Shown: positions 1,145 through 11,607 of the stretch, in pieces
Numbering within the stretch: position 1 is the stretch's first letter
Layout: each line of letters opens with the position of its first letter
Source of the DNA: Chloroflexota bacterium
Lineage (GTDB): Bacteria; Chloroflexota; Limnocylindria; Limnocylindrales; CSP1-4
Length of the DNA stretch: 11,607 bases
Direction of reading: 5' to 3'
Assembly (NCBI GenBank): GCA_021786915.1
Contig: JAJYMP010000184.1
Span: 1 to 11,607, forward strand
The notes under the pieces: model-generated
The model's database searches: none
The model's input: the letters and a program-made list of their open reading frames with translations, nothing else
Told to the model about the DNA's origin: nothing
Made by a program: the position numbers and the translations under genes

Positions 1145-1537
1145 TTCGCCCCCGCTCGGCCCGCAGCCAGCTTCGCTCGTACCGCCGCCCTGCGGCGGTC
1201 ATCCAACAGGCGACAACGCCCCCGTGCACGGGCCGGGGACGCGGTCCGCTCCTACCGACGCCCGGAGGCGATAGGAGCGATTCCTTCGAGATAGGCGCCG
1301 CGGAGCGGCGATACGAGCGTCGCCGCGGGCGGAAGCAGCACGGCCGGGACGGTGCCCCACCGCCGGGACGCGGCCGGCGGCAGATCGACGAGGGGCAGAT
1401 CGACAAGCCCCGGCTCGTGCGCGTCAAACTCCATGCGCGGCACTGTGGCGTGTCGCGGCCGTTTGCGCACCTGAGGCGAACGCCGCATTGCCACCGGCTC
1501 AGGCTGACACGGCAGCTGCGGGCCGTCGCAAGCCCGA
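1145..1537. other. Intergenic stretch between repeat copy 1 and the rho promoter, with two hairpins
   Basis: No convincing gene is seen here. Two inverted repeats stand out. One is ACCGCCGC/GCGGCGGT with a 3-base loop (1181-1199). The other is an 11-bp stem, CGCTCCTATCG with CGGTAGGAGCG on the minus strand (1279-1247), which includes one T-G wobble. Neither is followed by a T-run on the minus strand, so neither is a standard intrinsic terminator. A 60-codon minus-strand frame (1434-1252) with a tandem 15-base duplication (LVDLP twice) is open, but it has no ribosome binding site and mixed third positions. This is where murA- or glpX-like genes sit in some relatives; I could not recognise any remnant of them. 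Confidence 0.5.
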
Positions 1538-1751
1538 GCCTGGTGACCCATTCCTGAGGTCGCCCGCCGGCTGCCGCGCGGGACCCCCGCCGCGCGCCGG
1601 CGGCTGAGTCGTGCTGGGGTCGCCGCGCGCGGCGGCGTGCGCGGACGCCGGCCAGAACCGGGGGCCCGCGGCTTGGCCCGTGCGCGCGGGGGGCGCTCCT
1701 GACCCCGACGCGACTCAAGCAGCGAGGGACCAGCGGATCGGAACACTGGCC
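1538..1751 (-). repeat. Dispersed 214-bp inverted-repeat element, copy 1
   Basis: Read on the minus strand, the left end is GGCCAGTGTTCCGATCC (1751-1735). The right end, read inward on the plus strand, is GCCTGGTGACCCATTCC (1538-1554). The two ends match at 12 of 17 positions as terminal inverted repeats. An inner inverted repeat pairs GAGTCGCGTCGGGGTC with GACCCCAGCACGACTC. Copy 2 has the same length and orientation, and copy 3 is inverted. The left end begins immediately after the transaldolase C-terminal remnant, whose frame then reads into the element without a stop. A further hairpin, GCCGCCGGC/GCCGGCGGG, lies near the right end. No protein is assigned. The element could be MITE-like or a structured RNA element. 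Confidence 0.85.
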
Positions 1752-1984
1752 GTCCCTCCGCCGCAGCCCGGGCGGCCGCCCAGTCGTTGCGGAAGCGCTC
1801 GATGCCAAGGTCTGTCAGCGGGTGGTGGACCATCTGCTGGAGCACCTTGAACGGCAGCGTGGCGACGTGGGCGCCGGCAAGCGCAGCCTCGGTCACGTGG
1901 CGCGGGTTTGATGTCGTCGAGGCGGCCGACGAAGGGCGACAGGAGCGACGCGCCCGTCTTGGCGGCGAGCGGCCCCTGGTTGGC
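1748..1984 (-). pseudogene. tal: Transaldolase (fructose-6-phosphate aldolase-like) remnant
   Basis: Two family blocks are present in different frames. The first (1984 to about 1899) reads [20 protein letters not shown] followed by RLDDI, which is the lysine-barrel strand and following loop of the small TalC/Fsa-type transaldolases. The second, starting near 1900, reads [20 protein letters not shown] followed by [13 protein letters not shown] and [13 protein letters not shown], the C-terminal end of the same family. In intact members about 30 residues separate RLDDI from the PRHVTEA block; here they are fused out of frame. The N-terminal half or more, including the region expected between pyrG and ANQ, is absent: pyrG stops only about 60 bases upstream. 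The 3' end runs into repeat copy 1 without a stop codon. Position between pyrG and rho matches the ancestral gene order, so this is the decayed resident gene. An assembly deletion is a less likely alternative. Confidence 0.88.
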
Positions 1985-2043
1985 GGGGCGCCGGCGGGTG
2001 GCGACGGCCCCGGGGCGGGCCTCGCCAGGGCGCCGGAGTTGCG

Positions 2044-3782
<1,739 letters not shown>

Positions 3783-3841
3783 GCCTGTGCGGGTTGCGAT
3801 TGGGGTTCGGCGGGCCGCGCCACCCTCGCAAGGCCATTGCC

Positions 3842-4055
3842 GGCCAGTGTCCCGTTCCTGAGGTCGCCCCCTGGTTGCCGCCCGGGACCCTCGCCGCGCG
3901 CCGGCGGCTGAGTCGTGCCGGGGTCGCCACGCGCCGCGGCGTGCGCGGGCGCCGACCCGAACGGGCGGTCCGCGGCGCGGCCCGTGCGCGCGGGGGGCGC
4001 TCCTGACCCCGACGCGACTCAACCGGCGAGGGGTCGGCGGATCGGGACGCTAGGG
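3842..4055 (-). repeat. Dispersed 214-bp inverted-repeat element, copy 2
   Basis: The right end, read inward on the plus strand, is GGCCAGTGTCCCGTTCC (3842-3858). It matches the left end of copy 1 at 15 of 17 positions, which shows that the two ends are versions of one terminal inverted repeat. The left end, read on the minus strand, is CCCTAGCGTCCCGATCC (4055-4039). The inner pair is GAGTCGCGTCGGGGTC and GACCCCGGCACGACTC; relative to copy 1 one mismatch has become a C-G pair. The left end includes the last Pro codon and the TAG stop of the hydrolase gene. The right end lies about 60 bases upstream of the pyrG -35 hexamer. Confidence 0.87.
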
Positions 4056-5609
4056 GGCGAACGTGGGCGAGGGGTCCTTGCAGACCGTGCCCTGGGCGGG
4101 CGTGGTCAGCTTGGTGAGGTATGCCCCCGCCGCGCCGCTGAGGCACGGGTTGTTCAGCATCGAGCCGCCGGTCGTGTGGCCGAGGCCGTCGCGCATCAGC
4201 ACGACCCCAGTGCCGAGCGCATCGGCGAGGGGCTGGGCCATGAAGGGCGGCGTGGCGGGGTCGTACCTCGACGCGATGACCAGGATCGGCGGCAGGCCGG
4301 CGGGCGGGGCGCCGACCTTGACCGGGCTCGCCTCGACGGGCCAGGAGAGACAGCCGTAGGCATCCGCGAGCACGACGTAAGCCGCAAACTCCGGCGCGGC
4401 CGCCCGGGTCTTCGCGAACGCCGTCTCGATGGCGCCGGGCGTGGGCAGGTGGGCCGCGTCCAGGCACGATGTCGCCAGGTAGGACCCCAGGTCCACTTGC
4501 TCGTAGTAGTAGTTCGCGACGGCCAGCAGGGTCTCGCCGTTTCCTCGCTGCGCGTCGGCCAGGGCCTGCATGAGGGGCTGCGGGTCGTCCGCGTACAGGA
4601 AGGTGATGACGCCGGTCACCGCCTCGCCGCGACCCAGCTTGCCCGTCCCGGCCGCGATTGGCTGGCGGTCAAGGCGCGCCATGAGTTCCGCGTAGGCCTT
4701 GGCCGGCTTGCCGCCGTTGTGGAAGGGGCAGGCCTTGGCCGAGGCGCACAGGGCCATCACGTGGTCGAAGGCGGTCTCGAAGCCGCGCGCCTGGCCATCG
4801 TCGCGACCCTGGAGGTCGAGCGTCGGATCCACAGGCCCGTCGAGGATCGCGGCGCGCAGCCGGGTCGGGAACATCGTCGCGTAGAGGTAGCCCAGGTACG
4901 TGCCGTAGGACCAGCCGTAGTAGCTGATCGTCGTCTCGCCCATCGCGGCGCGGATCGCGTCCATGTCCCGGGCCGTGTTCGCCTCGGAGAGGTACGGCAG
5001 GAGGTCGCCGCTCGCCGCTTGGCACTGGGTGGCGACCTCGCCGAAGACGGTGGCGTAGGCAGCGATGGCCGCCTCCGTCGCCGGGTCCGGGTCGAGAGCC
5101 TCCGCCTTTGCGATCGTCACCTGGTCGGGACACGTCAGGCCGCGACTCAGCCCGACGCCGCGCGGATCCCAGCTGACCAGGTCGAAACGGTCGGCGATGT
5201 CGGGCGGCAGGAGGCCGTCTGCGCGCGACAGCATCTCAACCCCCGAGCCGCCGGGGCCGCCCGGATTGAGGAACAGCGTGCCGACGCGCTGCGACGGGCT
5301 GCGGACTCTGTGCCGGACGACTGCCAGCGTGATCGTCCCCGCGTTCGGGTGGTCGTAGTCGAGGGGCACCGTGACCGTCGTGGATTCGTTGGGGCCCAGG
5401 GTCCAGGTGAGCCCGCCGGTCGTGAGCGACGGGCCCGGTGCGCCCTGCGCGGCGGGCGTGCCTGTGGGCGCAGGGCTGGGCTGCGGCGTGCCGGTCGGGG
5501 CGGACCACGGGGCCGGCGAGGGCGACGGGGACGGCGAGGGGGCAGGAGCGCCGCAGCCGGCAATGCCGATGGCGATCGCCAGGATCGCGGTCGAGACGTG
5601 GCGGCTCAT
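4050..5609 (-). CDS. Lipoprotein alpha/beta hydrolase, tripeptidyl aminopeptidase-like (TAP/S33 type)
   Basis: The product (519 residues) is probably an exported, lipid-anchored peptidase or esterase. Residues 4-19 form a signal peptide ending in the lipobox IAGC (Cys19). A Pro/Ser/Thr-rich linker (about 21-58) follows, as in surface lipoproteins. The fold shows the oxyanion segment NPGGPGGSG (115-123), the nucleophile elbow GWSYGT with Ser234, an acid at Asp450 (ASRYDPATPP) and His478 (GLGHTTG). The C-terminal end with PCLSGAAGAYL is the TAP-like domain. The ATG at 5609 has GGAGGG eight bases upstream. Homologues release tripeptides or cleave small esters outside the cell; the substrate here is unknown. 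The stop codon is supplied by repeat copy 2, so a short tail may have been lost. A 90-base gap carrying two palindromes separates it from the permease upstream. Confidence 0.9.
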   Translation of the reverse strand: MSRHVSTAILAIAIGIAGCGAPAPSPSPSPSPAPWSAPTGTPQPSPAPTGTPAAQGAPGPSLTTGGLTWTLGPNESTTVTVPLDYDHPNAGTITLAVVRHRVRSPSQRVGTLFLNPGGPGGSGVEMLSRADGLLPPDIADRFDLVSWDPRGVGLSRGLTCPDQVTIAKAEALDPDPATEAAIAAYATVFGEVATQCQAASGDLLPYLSEANTARDMDAIRAAMGETTISYYGWSYGTYLGYLYATMFPTRLRAAILDGPVDPTLDLQGRDDGQARGFETAFDHVMALCASAKACPFHNGGKPAKAYAELMARLDRQPIAAGTGKLGRGEAVTGVITFLYADDPQPLMQALADAQRGNGETLLAVANYYYEQVDLGSYLATSCLDAAHLPTPGAIETAFAKTRAAAPEFAAYVVLADAYGCLSWPVEASPVKVGAPPAGLPPILVIASRYDPATPPFMAQPLADALGTGVVLMRDGLGHTTGGSMLNNPCLSGAAGAYLTKLTTPAQGTVCKDPSPTFAP

Positions 5610-5623
5610 GCGGCGGTGGACCC

Positions 5624-5651
5624 TCCGCCGGGAGCGTACGCTCCCGGCGGA
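5624..5651. promoter_or_regulatory. 28-bp perfect palindrome at the hydrolase ribosome binding site
   Basis: The arms are TCCGCCGGGAGCGT and its exact complement, 14 bases each with no spacer. On the minus strand the last three bases (GGA) are the first half of the GGAGGG ribosome binding site (5626-5621) of the hydrolase gene. It could be an operator for a dimeric regulator, or an RNA hairpin that hides the ribosome binding site. No T-run follows, so a simple intrinsic terminator is unlikely. Confidence 0.7.
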
Positions 5652-5673
5652 CCCGGCGGCAATGGACGCGCTC

Positions 5674-5688
5674 GCAGGCCTGGCCTGC
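5674..5688. repeat. Short inverted repeat between permease and hydrolase genes
   Basis: GCAGGCC and GGCCTGC flank a single central base. It lies 11 bases after the permease stop codon on the minus strand. It may stabilise the 3' end of the permease message. No T-run follows, so it is not a clear terminator. Confidence 0.4.
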
Positions 5689-5699
5689 CGGGCCGGGTC

Positions 5700-6551
5700 C
5701 TACCCCGCCATCCCCAGGCGATTGCGGACGGAGGCTGGCACCATCGCCGCCCGCCGCGTGACCGCCACGCCGAGCACGATGATCCCGCCGCCCACCGCCT
5801 GCGCCGGCCCGACCGGCTCCCCGAGCAACGCCGCGCCGAGCAGGACGGCACCCGCCGGCACCAGCAGCTGCATCGCCGAGGTGCGCGTGGGGCCGACGAG
5901 GCGCACGGCGTTGAACACCAGGACGTTGGCGATCCCGGCCGCGAGAACGCCCGCGTAGAGGATCCCGGCGACAGCCGTGAGCGGGACGGATGCCGGTGGG
6001 GTCGTGACAACATCCCACACCCCGAACGGGAGGAGGAACAGGAATCCGCCGAGAACAGTCCACGTGGTCGCGGTCAGCGGGTCCACGTGGCGCAGCACCC
6101 GCGTGCCCAGCACCGTGTACACCGCCCAAAGCAGTGCCGCCGTCAGCGTCAGCCAGTCGCCGGCGAGCGACTGGTCGAGCCCCAGCCCGGAGCCGGCCCC
6201 GATGACGACCGCCACGCCCGCGAAGGCCGTCAGCGCCCCGGCCAGCTTCGGAGGGCTGAGCCGGTCCAGCCCGACGGCGGCTGCCAGAAGCGCGACGGCC
6301 ACCGGCGACGCCGCGATGATCAGGGCGCTGTCACCGGCGGTGATCTGGGTGAGGCCCGTGGTCCACAGCACCTGGTAGGCGCCGAACCCGAGCATGCCCA
6401 GCGCGAGGAGCGGCAGCGTGAACCGCCCGGGTGAGCGGATCGGGCCGGAGCGCCAGCGCAGCAGCAGGAACAGCGTCACGGCCGCCACCCCGAAACGGGA
6501 GGTCGTGAACGTGAGCGGCCCGAGCACGGTGATCGCCGACTTGACGACCAC
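5700..6551 (-). CDS. EamA/DMT-family permease (start uncertain, probably upstream)
   Basis: This is an inner-membrane transporter of the drug/metabolite superfamily, with two EamA repeats (about residues 1-130 and 145-270) and about ten hydrophobic segments in total. Typical family segments include FGAYQVLWTTGL, AGDSALIIAASPVAVALLAA and PAGAVLLGAALLGEP. The substrate cannot be told from sequence. The coordinates use GTG at 6551, which cuts through the first membrane segment: the same frame upstream reads LVTVLIWAANFVVVKSAI, a classic first helix. That upstream frame stays open to 6750 but has no ATG, GTG or TTG codon. CTG at 6707, preceded by GGAAGG, or ATC at 6602, are the only faint alternatives. 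A terminator-like hairpin (6622-6656) lies in this interval. The true gene may extend to about 6605-6707, or may carry a 5' lesion. Confidence 0.85.
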   Translation of the reverse strand: MVVKSAITVLGPLTFTTSRFGVAAVTLFLLLRWRSGPIRSPGRFTLPLLALGMLGFGAYQVLWTTGLTQITAGDSALIIAASPVAVALLAAAVGLDRLSPPKLAGALTAFAGVAVVIGAGSGLGLDQSLAGDWLTLTAALLWAVYTVLGTRVLRHVDPLTATTWTVLGGFLFLLPFGVWDVVTTPPASVPLTAVAGILYAGVLAAGIANVLVFNAVRLVGPTRTSAMQLLVPAGAVLLGAALLGEPVGPAQAVGGGIIVLGVAVTRRAAMVPASVRNRLGMAG

Positions 6552-6617
6552 GAAGTTGGCCGCCCAGATGAGGACCGTGACGAGGACGCCGGCCTCGGCG
6601 ATCCGGCGCTCGCGCGC

Positions 6618-6656
6618 AGAAACGGCGACGCCCGCCGGTCTGGCGGGCGTCGCCGT
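6618..6656 (-). terminator. Strong hairpin with short T-run after the 51-residue gene
   Basis: Arms of 15 bases match perfectly (ACGGCGACGCCCGCC and its complement) around the 5-base loop AGACC. On the minus strand TTTCTG ends the structure. It lies about 48 bases after the stop of the 51-residue gene and just before the first membrane helix of the permease. The T-run is short, so it may be a partial terminator or attenuator. Confidence 0.6.
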
Positions 6657-6703
6657 GCGAAGCGTCGGCGATCCGGCGGCCCCCGCCGGTGATGAGCTGT
6701 CGA

Positions 6704-6859
6704 TCAGGCGCCTTCCTGCTCGAGCTCGAGCGCCTCCTCGTCGTCCTCCTCAGTGAGCTTGAGCCAGACGAACAGCCCGGCCAGCACGATGAGGGGGATG
6801 ATGATCATGGCGCCCAGGGTGATCCCAAGAGCGACGGCTACGGTCCGCAGCGCTTTCAT
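6704..6859 (-). CDS. Small single-pass membrane protein with acidic tail, 51 residues
   Basis: I do not recognise a family. The protein starts MKALRTVAVALGITLG, has one long hydrophobic stretch (about residues 5-33, including IIIPLIVLAGLFVWL), and ends in a highly acidic tail of Glu and Asp (residues 37-49). With Lys2 and Arg5 before the helix, the N-terminus probably stays inside, which would place the acidic tail outside; the orientation is inferred. The gene has an excellent ribosome binding site, GAGGAGG nine bases before the ATG. A good promoter lies about 40 bases upstream, and a strong hairpin lies downstream. These flanking signals argue for a real, separately transcribed gene. Confidence 0.82.
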   Translation of the reverse strand: MKALRTVAVALGITLGAMIIIPLIVLAGLFVWLKLTEEDDEEALELEQEGA

Positions 6860-6896
6860 GCGACGGGACCTCCTCTGCTACTGCGTGGTGGGCGAG

Positions 6897-6925
6897 ATTG
6901 TGCCGCCTGCCAGGCGACCTGTCAT
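6897..6925 (-). promoter_or_regulatory. Promoter of the 51-residue membrane protein
   Basis: ATGACA (6925-6920, 5 of 6 to consensus) and CACAAT (6902-6897, 4 of 6) are 17 bases apart on the minus strand. The -35 hexamer overlaps the TGA stop codon of the upstream 174-residue gene. The leader before the ATG at 6859 would be about 30 bases and contains GAGGAGG. Confidence 0.6.
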
Positions 6926-7446
6926 CCGCCGGAGGCGGGGGTTGCGGATCCGGCCCGCGCGCGGAGGGAGGGGCCGCGGGCGACGAGCCCTTCGACGTCC
7001 TCGGCTGTGAACTCGGCGAGGACGTGGTGCGCCGCGCCCTGACCCGACACCAGCAGCCGGACGACATACGCCCCGTCCTGCTCGAACAGGAAGACGTCGC
7101 GCGGCTTCTGCTCGTCCATCCACCGACCGATCACGCGGAGCGCGCGCTCGTGGAGGCCCGCCTGCGCGGTGCCGGGCGGGTCGCCGCTGCCACGGCGCTT
7201 GATGGCCTCCTCCATAAACTTGGCGATGTCCTCGTCGAGGTAGGTCAGGGTCTCCTTGACCACGGAGCCCACCGATTCCGACCACGCGCTGGAACCGCCC
7301 TGGCTGGTGACGAGACCCTGGACGACGTACCCGTCGGGCACCTCCAGCAGCAGGACGTCCCGCATGTTCCGTCGGTCGAGGAAGGCGCCGATCGAGCGGA
7401 AGACCTCCTCGAAGTCCTGGCGCGGGCTTCCCTCGTAGATCCGCAT
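6922..7446 (-). CDS. Uncharacterised protein with two tandem copies of one domain, 174 residues
   Basis: No family is recognised. The protein is soluble, with no signal peptide or membrane helix, and contains an internal duplication. Residues 12-50 (FRSIGAFLDRRNMRDVLLLE, then DGYVVQGLVTSQG) align with residues 98-137 (LRVIGRWMDEQKPRDVFLFE, then GAYVVRLLVSGQG). After each, a similar segment follows (LDEDIAKFM and TAEDVEGLV). The shared pattern is IGxxxDxxxxRDVxLxE, then YVVxxLVxxQG, suggesting helix-strand-strand units. I chose ATG at 7446 because AAGGAGG lies four bases upstream. A longer frame upstream has no comparable start. The gene is separately promoted and sits between psuG and the small membrane protein gene. 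The function is unknown; a sensing or binding module is only a guess. Confidence 0.85.
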   Translation of the reverse strand: MRIYEGSPRQDFEEVFRSIGAFLDRRNMRDVLLLEVPDGYVVQGLVTSQGGSSAWSESVGSVVKETLTYLDEDIAKFMEEAIKRRGSGDPPGTAQAGLHERALRVIGRWMDEQKPRDVFLFEQDGAYVVRLLVSGQGAAHHVLAEFTAEDVEGLVARGPSLRARAGSATPASGG

Positions 7447-7571
7447 CGAGCCTCCTTGCGGCGCGTCGCGCCCGTCCGAGCGGCGATGCCCTTGCGAACC
7501 GGTCCTCCGGTGTGAGCAGGCCGCGGTCCCTCGCCCGCCGCTCGCTCGCACGGAACAGGACGGTCGCGACG

Positions 7572-7600
7572 AGTGTAGTCATCGGCCCCGTCCCGAACAA
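7572..7600 (-). promoter_or_regulatory. Predicted promoter of the 174-residue protein gene
   Basis: TTGTTC (7600-7595) and TACACT (7577-7572) are 17 bases apart on the minus strand, at 3 of 6 and 4 of 6 to consensus. The start would be near 7565, giving a leader of about 118 bases before the ATG at 7446. Support is moderate. Confidence 0.4.
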
Positions 7601-7648
7601 GACGCTCCGGCGGTCTTCAGCCGGACCTCGACCGGGCCCGGAGCCAGG

Positions 7649-8581
7649 TCAGCGCGCGAGCGCCACCGCGAGCAGCCCGCCCACGCGGGCGTTGTCGACG
7701 ATGAGCGCGATGTTCGCCTTGACGCTGGCGCCGCCGGTGATCTCGGCAACCCGAGCGAGCAGCCACGGCGTCGTGGCCGGCCCGCGGATCCCGGCCGCGT
7801 CCGCGTCGGCGAGGGCGCGGGCGACGACCTCGCGCACGAACCCGTCCTCCAGCGCGTCCGCGGCGGGCACGGGGTTGCACACGACGATGCCGGCGTCGAG
7901 GCCGAGCGCCGCCTGCGCGTCGACCACCCGGGCGGCCGCGGCCACGTCCGCGATGGTCATCGGGGCCGGGATGCCGCTCCGTCGCGCCCAGAAGAACGGC
8001 ATCTCGTCCTGGCCCAGCACCAGCACCGGGACCCCGGCGGTCTCGAGGTACTCGAGGGTGCGCGGGACGTCGAGGATCGCCTTCGGGCCTGCGCAGACCA
8101 CCGCGACCGGCGTCCGGGCGAGCTCGCCGAGGTCGGCCGAGATGTCGAACGAGGGGTTCGGGCCGTCGAGCGCGCCGCGGTGCACCCCACCAATGCCACC
8201 GGTGCTGAAGACGCGGATCCCGGCTGCGTGCGCCGCGATCATCGTGGCCGACACGGTGGTTGCGGACCATCCGCCGGCGGCTGCGCCCTCTGCCAGGCTG
8301 TGGCGCGAGACCTTGCGCACACTGCCGGAAGGTGCGGACGCCAGGGCCTCGAGGTCGTCCTGGGCGAGGCCCACGAGCAGCCGGCCATCGCGCATGGCCA
8401 CGGTGGCGGGGACCGCGCCTGAGGCGCGAACGGCCTGCTCGGAGGCCGTCGCGACCTCCACGTTCTGCGGGTACGGCAGGCCGTGGCTGATGAGCGTGGA
8501 CTCGAGGGCGACGACGGGGCTGGCGTCACGGAGGGCGTCGGCAACCTCCGGGGCGATCACGAGGCGGTCGGGCTGCGGCAT
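7649..8581 (-). CDS. psuG: Pseudouridine-5'-phosphate glycosidase
   Basis: The enzyme splits pseudouridine 5'-phosphate into uracil and ribose 5-phosphate, the second step of pseudouridine breakdown, in the cytoplasm. Its 310 residues match the family length. Diagnostic blocks are VVALESTLISHGLPYPQN (Glu27), VRKVSRHSLA, GGWSATTVSATMIAA, FSTGGIGGVHRGA, SFDISADLGELARTPVAVVC, AGPKAILD (Lys167, the expected Schiff-base lysine), VVCNPVP and GGASVKANIALIVDNARVGG. The ATG at 8581 has no ribosome binding site, but TACCCT lies six bases upstream, suggesting a leaderless message. The pseudouridine kinase gene (psuK) that usually accompanies psuG is not in this window. The gene is divergent from the S9 peptidase. 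Confidence 0.95.
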   Translation of the reverse strand: MPQPDRLVIAPEVADALRDASPVVALESTLISHGLPYPQNVEVATASEQAVRASGAVPATVAMRDGRLLVGLAQDDLEALASAPSGSVRKVSRHSLAEGAAAGGWSATTVSATMIAAHAAGIRVFSTGGIGGVHRGALDGPNPSFDISADLGELARTPVAVVCAGPKAILDVPRTLEYLETAGVPVLVLGQDEMPFFWARRSGIPAPMTIADVAAAARVVDAQAALGLDAGIVVCNPVPAADALEDGFVREVVARALADADAAGIRGPATTPWLLARVAEITGGASVKANIALIVDNARVGGLLAVALAR

Positions 8582-8587
8582 GCGCCG

Positions 8588-8593
8588 AGGGTA
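8588..8593 (-). promoter_or_regulatory. -10-like element for a leaderless psuG transcript
   Basis: TACCCT on the minus strand fits the TANNNT pattern and ends six bases before the psuG ATG. No ribosome binding site is present. Transcription would start at or next to the ATG. No clear -35 hexamer is seen. Confidence 0.4.
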
Positions 8594-8742
8594 CCGGAGC
8601 CTCGCGCGCGCGGCCTCGCGGCGCCAGGGACCGAGGCCCCGCGGGAGAGCACCAGCCGACCCGTGCGTCGTCAAGCCCGTTCCTGCTCGGTCACGCCGAG
8701 CCCGCTCGACGAAACCGCTCCCCGCCGGGCTCGCCGCCCCGC

Positions 8743-8748
8743 TAGGCT
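8743..8748 (+). promoter_or_regulatory. -10-like element for a leaderless S9 peptidase transcript
   Basis: TAGGCT fits the TANNNT pattern and ends six bases before the ATG at 8755, the same spacing as for the divergent psuG. There is no Shine-Dalgarno sequence and no evident -35 hexamer. Confidence 0.4.
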
Positions 8749-8754
8749 CGCCGC

Positions 8755-10803
8755 ATGCCGCCCGACGCCACCCCCGCGCTCCGCCTGCCAACCCCCGACA
8801 TCCTCCGGGAGCAGGTGGTCCTCGAGGAGCACGACCTCGCCCGGGACGGGTCGTTCGCCGTGGTGACCCAGCGCAGCCTGGACGGCGACGACTACGTCTC
8901 GCACCTCTGGGTGGTGACCGTCCCGGATGGCGGTGAGCCGCGGCAGCTCACCGGGGGGCGGGTCAGGGACATGCGGCCCGCGCTGAGCCCGGACGGGACG
9001 CGCGTCGCGTTCACCCGCAAGGTGCCCGGCGAGGAGCGGACGCACCTGATCGTGGCGGGCACGGACGGGAGGACGCCCGAGTCCCAGCTCGGCCTCGGCG
9101 AGCTCGACCCGGGACAGCCCGTCTGGTCCAGCGACGGCGCCTGGATCGCGTTCGCGGCGGAGACCGGCGCCGAGCGCTTCATCGTGGGCGGACGCCCGGC
9201 GAAGGGCGAGCCGCGAGCGCGCGTGGTGGCGGTCCTCGACTACCGGGCGGACGAACTTGGCTACGTCGACCGGCGCCCGCAGCTGTTCGTCGTGGCCGCC
9301 GACGGCAGCAGGGCGCCGCGCCGCATCACCGGCATCCCCGGCGGCGTCTCCGGCATCCCGGCCTGGCGGCCGGACGGTCGTGCGCTCGCGTTCACGGCGG
9401 ACCCCCGGCCCGATGCCGACCGCCACCCCAGGACGTCGGTCTTCGAGGTTGAGTTCGCGGACGGCGATGGCGACGCCGAGGTGGCCGGCCAGCCCCGCGA
9501 GGTCCTCGCGCTGGCCGGCCCGGTTCGTGCGCCCGCCTACTCGCCCGACGGCCGCTTCGTCGCCGGCATCGGCGTCGATGATCCCGACTTCTTCGACGAC
9601 CTGCCGCCAACCCTGCACGCCGCGCCCGTCGACGGGTCGGCACGCCCGTGGCCGCTCGCGCCAGACCTCGACCGGCCCGTCGGCAACTGGGCCGATTCGG
9701 ACCTCACCGGATGGATGGTCGACCAGCGCCCGGGGCCCGTCTGGGCGGCGACGGACCACGTCGTCGCGCTCATCACGGATCGCGGGCGGACGCACCCCTG
9801 GCGCGTCCGCGTCGATCCACAGAGCGGCCGGCCCATGGGCGATCCCGAGCGGCTCGCCCGCCGTGACGCCATGGCGAACGCCCTGGCGGCGACCGCCGAC
9901 CAGACGGTGACCGTCATCGCCACGCTGGACGCCCGTCCGCCCGAGCTCTGCCTCGTCGCTCCGGACGGCGCGCTCCGCCCGCTGACGACGATGGGCGGCG
10001 ACTGGCTCGGCGGCGTCGCCTGGCCGGAGATGCGCGCCGTGGAGGCGCCGGGACCGGGCGGGCCGATCGAGACCTGGGTCGCCTCGCCCGCGGGTGCGGA
10101 GGGTCGGCTGCCGACGATCGTGGACGTGCACGGCGGTCCCCTCGGCGCGTGGTCGCCCGCGCCCAGCCTCGAGGTCGCCCTGCTGTGCGCGCGCGGCTAC
10201 CGGGTCGTGCTGCCCAACATCCGCGGCTCCGCCAGCTACGGGCGAGAGTGGATCGCGCCGCAGCTGGGCGATTGGGGCGGCGTCGATGCAGACGACGTCC
10301 ACGCGGCGCTCGACCACGTCGTCTCGCTCGGCCTGGCCGACCCGGTGCGTCTCGGCGCGCTCGGCCTTTCCTACGGCGGGTTCATGGTGAACTGGCTCGT
10401 GGGGACGACGGACCGGTTCCGGGCGGCGGTGTCGGAGAACGGCGTGACCAACCAGGTCAGCGCCTGGGCGGCGAGCGACACCGGCCCGGAGTACTGCCGC
10501 GCCGCCCGTCTGGGCGACCCCACCACGCCCGAGGGCGTCGAGAGGTTGTGGCGCCAATCGCCGCTGCGCAACGTCGCGGACGTCCGAACGCCGCTGCTGC
10601 TGCTCCAGTCCGAGTCGGACCGCCGCTGCCCGGCGTCGGACAACGAGCAGTTCTTCGTCGCCCTGCGCCAGCTGGGCCGGATGGTGGAGTACGTGCTCTA
10701 CCCGGAGGAGTACCACGTGGTGCAGGCCACGGGCCGCATCGACCGCCGCGTGGACCGGATGGAGCGCATGCTCGCCTGGTTCGACCGCTTCCTGCGGGCC
10801 TGA
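8755..10803 (+). CDS. S9 family serine peptidase (prolyl oligopeptidase / acylaminoacyl-peptidase type)
   Basis: This is a cytoplasmic peptidase of 682 residues with no signal peptide. Residues of about 30-420 form a beta-propeller made of TolB/WD40-like blades (MRPALSPDGTRVAFTRK, IPAWRPDGRALAF, PAYSPDGRFVAG), which in this family restricts access to short peptides. The C-terminal alpha/beta hydrolase domain contains VDVHGGPLGAW, NIRGSASYGREWI and the nucleophile elbow GLSYGGFM with Ser539. Asp622 (SESDRRCP) and His654 (EEYHVVQATG) complete the triad. It most resembles the S9C acylaminoacyl-peptidase group, but exact specificity cannot be told. ATG at 8755 is preferred because the -10-like TAGGCT lies just upstream. 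A 109-residue gene follows after about 37 bases, possibly with its own promoter. Confidence 0.93.
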   Translation: MPPDATPALRLPTPDILREQVVLEEHDLARDGSFAVVTQRSLDGDDYVSHLWVVTVPDGGEPRQLTGGRVRDMRPALSPDGTRVAFTRKVPGEERTHLIVAGTDGRTPESQLGLGELDPGQPVWSSDGAWIAFAAETGAERFIVGGRPAKGEPRARVVAVLDYRADELGYVDRRPQLFVVAADGSRAPRRITGIPGGVSGIPAWRPDGRALAFTADPRPDADRHPRTSVFEVEFADGDGDAEVAGQPREVLALAGPVRAPAYSPDGRFVAGIGVDDPDFFDDLPPTLHAAPVDGSARPWPLAPDLDRPVGNWADSDLTGWMVDQRPGPVWAATDHVVALITDRGRTHPWRVRVDPQSGRPMGDPERLARRDAMANALAATADQTVTVIATLDARPPELCLVAPDGALRPLTTMGGDWLGGVAWPEMRAVEAPGPGGPIETWVASPAGAEGRLPTIVDVHGGPLGAWSPAPSLEVALLCARGYRVVLPNIRGSASYGREWIAPQLGDWGGVDADDVHAALDHVVSLGLADPVRLGALGLSYGGFMVNWLVGTTDRFRAAVSENGVTNQVSAWAASDTGPEYCRAARLGDPTTPEGVERLWRQSPLRNVADVRTPLLLLQSESDRRCPASDNEQFFVALRQLGRMVEYVLYPEEYHVVQATGRIDRRVDRMERMLAWFDRFLRA

Positions 10804-10819
10804 CGTCGATCGGTCGACG
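10804..10819. repeat. Small palindromic hairpin after the S9 peptidase stop
   Basis: CGTCGA and TCGACG enclose the loop TCGG directly after the TGA stop. The stem is six base pairs with no T-run. It may protect the 3' end of the message or mark a weak terminator before the next gene. Confidence 0.35.
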
Positions 10820-10827
10820 GCGGGTGC

Positions 10828-10833
10828 GATGAT
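10828..10833 (+). promoter_or_regulatory. Extended -10 element before the 109-residue gene
   Basis: TGC followed by GATGAT (10825-10833) resembles an extended -10 promoter. It ends seven bases before the ATG at 10841, which would again give a leaderless or nearly leaderless message. It also overlaps two upstream in-frame ATG codons (10829 and 10832). Confidence 0.35.
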
Positions 10834-10840
10834 GCGCGCC

Positions 10841-11170
10841 ATGGAGGACGTGGTCGCCGAGTACTCGAGGGTCGGCACGCGCTCCGATTTCTGGCTGAAC
10901 CTCGGGGCGCTGCTGACCGACGAAGTCGTCATCGTCGAGGCGCAGGCAGCCGGGATGGACTGGCCGGACCTCGCCGACGGGCGCAGGCGCCTCGTGAACA
11001 CGCGGCGGGCGATCATCGGCGTGGCCCTCAGGCGGGGCTGGATCGGCACCCAGGAGTCGTGGCTGCTGATGGGCGCCGACCCGCAGGAGGTGCTGGCCGC
11101 GGCCCGGCCCTGGATCGAGCGCGAGCAGCGGCGGCAGCTCGGCGAGACGGAGTCGCCCGAGGGGCGCTGA
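10841..11170 (+). CDS. Hypothetical protein, 109 residues
   Basis: No family is recognised. The protein is soluble and mostly helical by composition, with no signal peptide or membrane segment. Recognisable stretches are MEDVVAEYSRVGTRSDFWLN, TDEVVIVEAQAAGMDWPDL, RRAIIGVALRRGWIGTQESW and a charged C-terminus rich in Glu and Arg. Third codon positions are strongly G/C, as in the neighbours, which supports coding. In-frame ATG codons at 10829 and 10832 would add four or three residues. I prefer 10841 because an extended -10-like element covers the earlier ones. It follows the S9 peptidase in the same direction with a short gap, so the two may be co-transcribed. Confidence 0.7.
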   Translation: MEDVVAEYSRVGTRSDFWLNLGALLTDEVVIVEAQAAGMDWPDLADGRRRLVNTRRAIIGVALRRGWIGTQESWLLMGADPQEVLAAARPWIEREQRRQLGETESPEGR

Positions 11171-11208
11171 CCTGTGTGGCGTGGCCCTTGCGCGGGCCGG
11201 GGGCCGGC

Positions 11209-11450: not shown

Positions 11451-11607
11451 CCCTGGCGTCCCGATCCGCTGGTCCCTCGCTGACTGAGTCGCGTCGGGTT
11501 CAGGAGCGCCTCCCGCGCGCACGGGCCGCGCCGCGGGCCCCCGGCTCGGGTCGGCGCCCGCGCACGCCGCAGCGCGCGGCGACCCCAGCACGACTCGGCC
11601 GCCGGCG
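11451..11607 (+). repeat. Dispersed 214-bp inverted-repeat element, copy 3 (cut by window edge)
   Basis: The left end is CCCTGGCGTCCCGATCC (11451-11467), 16 of 17 identical to the left end of copy 2. The copy then follows the others through GAGTCGCGTCGGGTTC and GACCCCAGCACGACTC up to the window edge, so 157 bases are visible. It is in the opposite orientation to copies 1 and 2. It abuts a coding remnant on its left side. Confidence 0.82.

Follow-up and report, generated by a model that had tools for sequence, protein, structure and literature searches.

A Probable IS630-Type MITE of Chloroflexota That Is Often Located Exactly on Gene Stop Codons

Introduction

The described bacterial repeat that is nearest in kind to the one analyzed here is RUP of Streptococcus pneumoniae, which goes together with the insertion sequence (IS) IS630-Spn1; in the passages devoted to it in PMC2229807 and PMC3049150, RUP is small, intergenic, and gene-free, targets TA, and carries terminal repeats like those of an IS630 of the same genome, all of which it has in common with our repeat. 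According to the corresponding part of the review PMC2229807, similarity to IS ends was either not found or not looked for in the small repeats that it tabulates, RUP excepted. Duplication of a TA is known for IS630-type transposition (as stated in PMC2170065), and Tenzen and Ohtsubo 1991, cited in PMC2170065, name in their title a preference of IS630 for the TA in CTAG.

The DNA examined here, hereafter the window, is a stretch of 11,607 nucleotides from a Chloroflexota bacterium (contig JAJYMP010000184.1). A previous reading based on its letters alone (the sequence-only reading) had noticed three copies of an inverted-repeat element of about 214 bp, and had proposed either a MITE-like non-autonomous element or a large structured repeat of the REP/BIME type. 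We argue that the repeat is, in all likelihood, an IS630/Tc1/mariner-type MITE of about 204 bp between TA dinucleotides, probably moved into TA/CTAG by an IS630 transposase encoded elsewhere.

Results

Three Copies of the Repeat in the Window

Pfam searches identified in the window a partial Rho, a CTP synthase, a TAP-like hydrolase, an EamA transporter, an Indigoidine_A-like protein, and an S9 peptidase, along with the remnant of a transaldolase-type gene (called fsa; 21.5 bits, under the Pfam cut-off). Two of the nine window proteins scanned had no Pfam match and none of the nine contained a transposase domain, which bears out the earlier claim that the window lacks a transposase. Two complete copies of the repeat are present, and a third, inverted copy is cut by the window end, as previously proposed; the initial coordinates were right to within two bases, the true ends lying two bases further in. 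Comparison of the window with itself detected a direct repeat of 205 nt (1543-1747/3847-4051, 88% identity) and two pairs of inverted arms (3899-4058/11448-11607, 89% identity; 1595-1744/11458-11607, 91% identity). Ends were placed by comparison with copies in 59 further loci and counted from a CTAG-like tetranucleotide, which locates copy 1 at 1540-1749 (plus strand; profile match E 3e-53), copy 2 at 3844-4053 (plus strand; E 6e-54), and copy 3 at 11453-11607 (minus strand; E 1e-37 over model positions 57-210, with its right end at 11453). With IS630-type boundaries, copy 2 spans 3847-4050 and is followed by a right-hand TA at 4051-4052, and copy 1 would span 1543-1746, its TA-derived dinucleotides, now TG, lying at 1541-1542 and 1747-1748.

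The left terminal inverted repeat of copy 2 (3844-3858, plus strand) reads CCAGTGTCCCGTTCC, for which the family form is CTAG[CT]GTCCCGT[CT]CC; the right one (4038-4053) reads CTAGCGTCCCGATCCG on the minus strand and resembles the ends of two IS630 elements of a related genome (L067 and L069, see below). Both end sequences quoted in the sequence-only reading are real but had been wrongly labeled: GGCCAGTGTTCCGATCC corresponds to the minus-strand reading of the right end of copy 1, and GGCCAGTGTCCCGTTCC to the left end of copy 2, the actual left end of copy 1 being more diverged (CTGGTGACCCATTCC). The inner pair that it had described (GAGTCG..GGGGTC with GACCCC..CGACTC) was recovered on the plus strand of both complete copies, at 3910-3925 (GAGTCGTGCCGGGGTC) and 4005-4020 (GACCCCGACGCGACTC) in copy 2 and at 1606-1621 and 1701-1716 in copy 1; in copy 2, the start of GAGTC and the start of the last GACTC are 106 bp apart.

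Two window genes abut the repeat. As supported by its open reading frame (ORF), Pfam, and the end test described below, the TAP-like alpha/beta hydrolase gene (4050-5609, minus strand) ends with a TAG stop at 4050-4052 that is made by the right-hand CTAG of copy 2. The remnant of the transaldolase/fructose-6-phosphate aldolase gene fsa (1750-1984, minus strand) borders copy 1.

Copy Number and Distribution

A scan of genome contigs with the exact pattern returned two stretches, both in the metagenome-assembled genome (MAG) Chloroflexi bacterium SKS1.bin7 (G001); along its syntenic DNA, identity to the window is mostly 84-92%, and 79% in one piece of 76 bases. A second MAG of the same family, G077, is 96% identical to the window over 2-1123, 95% over 2017-3801, and 87% over 4039-11172. 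The repeat goes well beyond chance, with E-values down to 5e-77 in G001: at least 39 matches were found in this genome, 30 of them at E ≤ 5e-9 (best 40 of 241 candidates scored), and at least 34 in G077 at E ≤ 1e-8 (best 40 of 139 candidates scored). The many copies sharing the same ends that the MITE proposal had called for are thus represented by 30 strong matches in G001 and 34 in G077. Some of these matches are the two halves of one copy at contig ends, such as those on C97 and C56, which together form the G001 counterpart of window copy 2, and left flanks are common to L011 and L021 and to L100 and L117; because such contig-end halves are counted separately, the copy number is an inexact figure of about 30 per genome. 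We also observed that several contigs start or end inside MITE copies or a few bases from them (C56, C60, C72, C86, and C97 in G001; C16, C58, and C114 in G077). MAG contigs that end within copies indicate that the repeat disturbs metagenome assembly, which limits both assemblies.

Among 107 genomes of the family, of which the best seven candidates each were scored, G001 and G077 were the two that matched at E ≤ 1e-12. A search with a lax E-value, also scoring the best seven candidates per genome, gave matches in 59 of 101 genomes; outside G001 and G077 these were short stretches with a best E-value of 1e-7, which we judge to be chance matches. The repeat was unmatched in viral contigs, which were scanned with the exact pattern only, and in plasmids and phages.

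Fixed Ends and a Probable TA-Containing Target Word

Boundaries were examined on 30 complete copies (17 from G001, 11 from G077, and the two from the window). Mean pairwise identity was 0.69 over the first 20 bases and 0.74 over the last 20, and fell to 0.31-0.33 in the flanks, when 0.30 is expected for unrelated sequences of such composition; similarity therefore stops at the terminal repeats, as the MITE reading had anticipated. Of 44 left and 49 right ends, 21 and 27, respectively, have CTAG as their tetranucleotide, TA occupies the expected place at 58 of 93 ends, and both ends have it in 10 of the 30 complete copies; left and right variants of the tetranucleotide do not match copy by copy. 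The possibility that CTAG belongs to the element itself was considered and rejected: in the relative that lacks the element, each of the two window sites has a single CTAG or CTAC, as fits a target word. Duplication of the target, another feature expected from the sequence-only reading, fits the TA in CTAG but falls short of proof because many ends are decayed.

These boundaries also bear on the second proposal of that reading, a REP/BIME-type repeat, which would be mobilized by a RAYT (IS200/IS605-like) transposase. REP/BIME systems include a RAYT gene with flanking copies. The palindromic character of our repeat and the TAG-containing tetranucleotide at its ends would suit such an origin, but the unit is 210 bp long and has fixed ends on both sides, with terminal inverted repeats that resemble IS630 ends, whereas REP/BIME are palindromes of 20-40 bp in the description given in PMC3733652. 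We rejected this explanation, which appears extremely improbable.

Empty Sites in Relatives

Sites without the element were seen in relatives for window copies 1 and 2 and for some G001 copies, in line with the prediction made for a mobile element. At the place of copy 1, the element is absent from G001, in which the fsa stop, a TAG in CTAG, marks the position; this pair is not clean, as fsa is damaged in the window, which also has about 430 extra bases on the left side. Relative to the G001 gene, 89 internal bases and the 5′ part are missing from the window remnant. To the left of copy 1, window positions 1160-1332 are unmatched at the syntenic place of G001 and show 70-78% matches at three places of G077 (on C59, C81, and C8); this segment may represent another repeat family.

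At the site of copy 2, G001 has the element, divided between two contig ends, and G077 lacks it; the hydrolase stop of G077 lies in CTAC. Of the two relatives, the one more distant at Rho and CTP synthase hence has copy 2 and the closer one does not, which may reflect a local exchange of the hydrolase region (70% identical to G077 there) or a loss. Near the place matching copy 3, a G077 contig end carries a piece of MITE in the opposite orientation.

Six G001 sites were queried in G077. L007, L009, and L019 aligned through the joint, the L017 flanks were about 150 bases apart versus 136 in the joined query, and the remaining two sites gave no information (the L010 flanks lay 0.9 kb apart, and L011 matched with the right flank only). 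On closer examination, the alignments of L009 and L019 once more ran through the joint, and the match was confined to the left flank for L007 and to the right flank for L017, so that two to four G001 copies correspond to an empty site in G077. The G077 joint reads CTAG in the case of L009 and CTAA in that of L007; neither word occurs there in the case of L019 or L017. Including the two window sites, TA is visible at four of the six empty sites viewed (CTAG, CTAC, CTAG, and CTAA) and absent from view at L019 and L017. L007 and L009 are 99% identical and occupy different sites, which argues for recent movement. L003 is the only G001 locus compared whose flanks match G077 MITE loci, on both sides (L099 and L116).

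An IS630 with Matching Ends in the Same Genome

DDE_3 transposase matches were found three times in G001 and twice in G077. The transposase frames of L067 (G001, 372 aa) and L122 (G077, 364 aa) belong to IS630, as supported by NCBIfam NF033545 (274.5 and 266.3 bits, respectively, for a cut-off of 100) and also by Pfam. The L067 IS is 1143 bp long and has terminal inverted repeats in common with the MITE of the same genome: the right end of the MITE at L009 matches one L067 end at 21 of 25 bases and the other at 20. Its agreement is 20 of 25 with the L069 end but only 14 of 25 with the end of the L122 IS, an element with an open transposase frame; no comparable end pair was seen for the third G001 transposase (L068/L125). 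In two G077 MITE copies, L100 and L104, an L067 end replaces the usual left end (38/38 and 37/38 bases; E 4e-17 and 9e-15), and outside these two, the likeness between the MITE and the matching IS630 ends extends over no more than about 25-37 bases. With up to three mismatches, the IS-end pattern occurs at seven places in G001 and eight in G077, which include IS ends and MITE ends, and at none in either genome when read backwards as a control. Among these places are G077 contig ends that are 97.6% and 84% identical to the first 125-127 bases of the L067 IS.

At L122, the IS630 sits exactly inside a CTAG that forms, on one side, the stop of a gene with a glyoxalase domain (Pfam 41.8 bits) and, on the other, the right end of a MITE truncated at its left. 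The transposase frames of L067, L069, and L122 extend to the very end of the element, and the stop of the last two is the TAG of the flanking CTAG and is thus supplied by the target; L069 also looks frame-shifted further upstream.

The repeat is therefore a short element of 210 bp without a transposase gene, its ends are shared by multiple copies at unrelated sites, and relatives have empty sites; together with the autonomous IS630 with matching ends at L067, the copy number, fixed ends, and empty sites support the MITE-like alternative of the sequence-only reading. The likeness of the ends suggests that the MITE is probably mobilized by an ordinary IS630 transposase.

Copies Located on Stop Codons

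The position of copies relative to genes was assessed on 86 ends flanked by 300 bases or more, after one duplicate flank had been dropped, using a home-made coding score rather than gene calls. At 28 of these ends, the frame ending at the tetranucleotide is open for at least 80 codons and has a coding-like GC content by codon position; at 27 of the 28, the tetranucleotide supplies the in-frame stop codon of the coding-like ORF. Shifted-frame controls were coding-like at two and two ends. The 27 ends belong to 27 different loci of the 60 examined, among which L108 is the nested IS630 transposase itself and L022 the ortholog of window copy 2. The repeat is thus often exactly on gene stop codons. 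Over the loci studied, which were chosen around copies and include element ends, CTAG falls 4- to 14-fold short of the number predicted from base composition (60 vs. 305 in G001, 41 vs. 154 in G077, and 2 vs. 28 in the window), and the distinct CTAGs that end coding-like ORFs are 21 of 50, 10 of 23, and 1 of 2, respectively.

These observations are best explained by the following scenario. An IS630-family transposase encoded elsewhere in the genome would recognize the terminal repeats and excise the MITE, the foldback merely carrying the ends; the element would then insert at a TA, preferably within CTAG, with duplication of the TA. As the first base of the element is G and its last base is C, CTAG would become CTA|G...C|TAG upon insertion, with TAG rebuilt on both sides. 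When the target is a stop codon, TAG would be rebuilt at the same codon on the left, or on the right for a gene on the opposite strand, leaving the host protein unchanged. As CTAG is rare in this 73% GC sequence and is often a stop codon, many copies are expected at the 3′ ends of genes, where target choice and selection against damage would put them.

Does the Repeat Fold as a Selected RNA?

Placement at 27 of 86 ends on gene stops could alternatively denote a functional structured RNA, or a bidirectional 3′-end processing or termination element, selected at gene ends and owing its IS630-like ends to its origin only. The long foldback is in favor of this possibility, as is the retention of copy 2 at one site in both the window and G001. 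Copy 2 folds somewhat better than its shuffles (z -2.12, 4 of 200 as good), but copy 1 does not (z -0.90, 30 of 200 as good). The consensus fold has 54 pairs, six of which are changed on both sides, with a covariation term of -1.06 in -59.1 kcal/mol, and sliding the partners abolishes pairing. One of five covariation measures was reached by just 12 of 500 shuffles, but the other four were reached by 42, 74, 44, and 71, so that the covariation analysis, which the sequence-only reading had called for, gives weak support for a conserved, selected fold. Moreover, neither terminator-like nor promoter-like sites were found in 1400-4200, and no Rfam 15 match reached the gathering score in the window; the single subthreshold hit in 1500-4100 lies outside the repeat. 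Conservation of position is also scarce, L003 alone among the G001 loci compared having flanks that match a G077 MITE locus, and targeting of CTAG alone already predicts placement at 3′ ends. Given the weak covariation and a copy 1 fold no better than shuffles, we place the selected RNA second, as a rather improbable explanation, behind that of an IS630-type MITE.

An Inner Module with a Nearly Constant Spacing

Both inner arms carry GAGTC and GACTC. Measured from start to start, the distance between the outer words is 106 bp in 29 distinct MITE pairs and 105 or 107 bp in seven. Six further units with this spacing, and with GAGTC-N6-GACTC at both arms, lie outside the MITEs detected with the profile: five in G001 C62, in two arrays, and one in G077 C26. 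A similar unit with a spacing of 104 is found in G001 C45. Every other spacing between 40 and 250 occurs at most twice outside MITEs (48 pairs in total). The units of L039 (G001 C62, 1091-1378 and 3552-4091) and of L098 (G077 C26, 2056-2241) have no obvious IS630 ends.

Units outside MITEs may be decayed MITEs or an older module. It is conceivable, if unlikely, that the latter is true and that an independent repeat, GAGTC and GACTC 106 bp apart, was captured between IS630 ends; the recurrence of both spacing and arms outside the detected MITEs would then be accounted for. However, these units come from loci fetched for other reasons and do not amount to a genome-wide count, the five L039 units still weakly match the MITE profile (E 8e-4 to 2.6), and the C45 unit retains a right-end-like stretch, so that the units may be decayed or internally duplicated MITEs. 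A further step, which we regard as doubtful, would be that the core has a role of its own, for example as a protein or methylation site, and is spread by IS630 ends, often onto stop codons, harmlessly since the stop is rebuilt in both directions. GAGTC and GACTC are GANTC words, and words of this type are mentioned for the CIR repeats of Caulobacter in PMC2229807.

Discussion

The present analysis ties a small repeat to the IS that is likely to mobilize it in a Chloroflexi lineage, and offers a simple reason for the pile-up of copies at the 3′ ends of genes: CTAG is rare, it is often a stop codon, and the stop is rebuilt upon insertion. In a full-text literature search, in which most subscription journals were outside scope, no paper joining MITE, IS630, and Chloroflexi was found, and Chloroflexi with the full MITE term returned, within the same scope, only titles on other subjects.

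RUP differs from the MITE in sequence and in host phylum. At 107 bp, it is about half as long (PMC2229807; PMC3049150), and placement on a CTAG stop codon, as seen here, is absent from the descriptions of RUP in these two papers. MITEPsy1 of Pseudomonas syringae, as presented in PMC3189936, resembles the MITE in having CTAG or YTAA as a target and ends like those of an IS of the same genome, but is 100 nt long, makes a 4-nt duplication, and has ends like ISPsy2, which is listed as IS5-type. The BOX repeats of S. pneumoniae encode the 3′ stop codon of 36 annotated genes according to the section of PMC3049150 that deals with them, which recalls the MITE; however, their ends are compared there with ISSpn2 rather than with IS630, and the stop is part of the repeat instead of a target word. 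Correia/NEMIS and ERIC are likewise small foldback repeats with TA at their termini but differ in length, judging from their description in PMC2229807, on which this comparison is based. What the repeat works like and what it is are in agreement: it is an IS630-derived MITE of the RUP/IS630-Spn1 type, a known kind of element, in which the landing on stop codons and an inner 106-bp module also present outside detected MITEs are the less usual traits.
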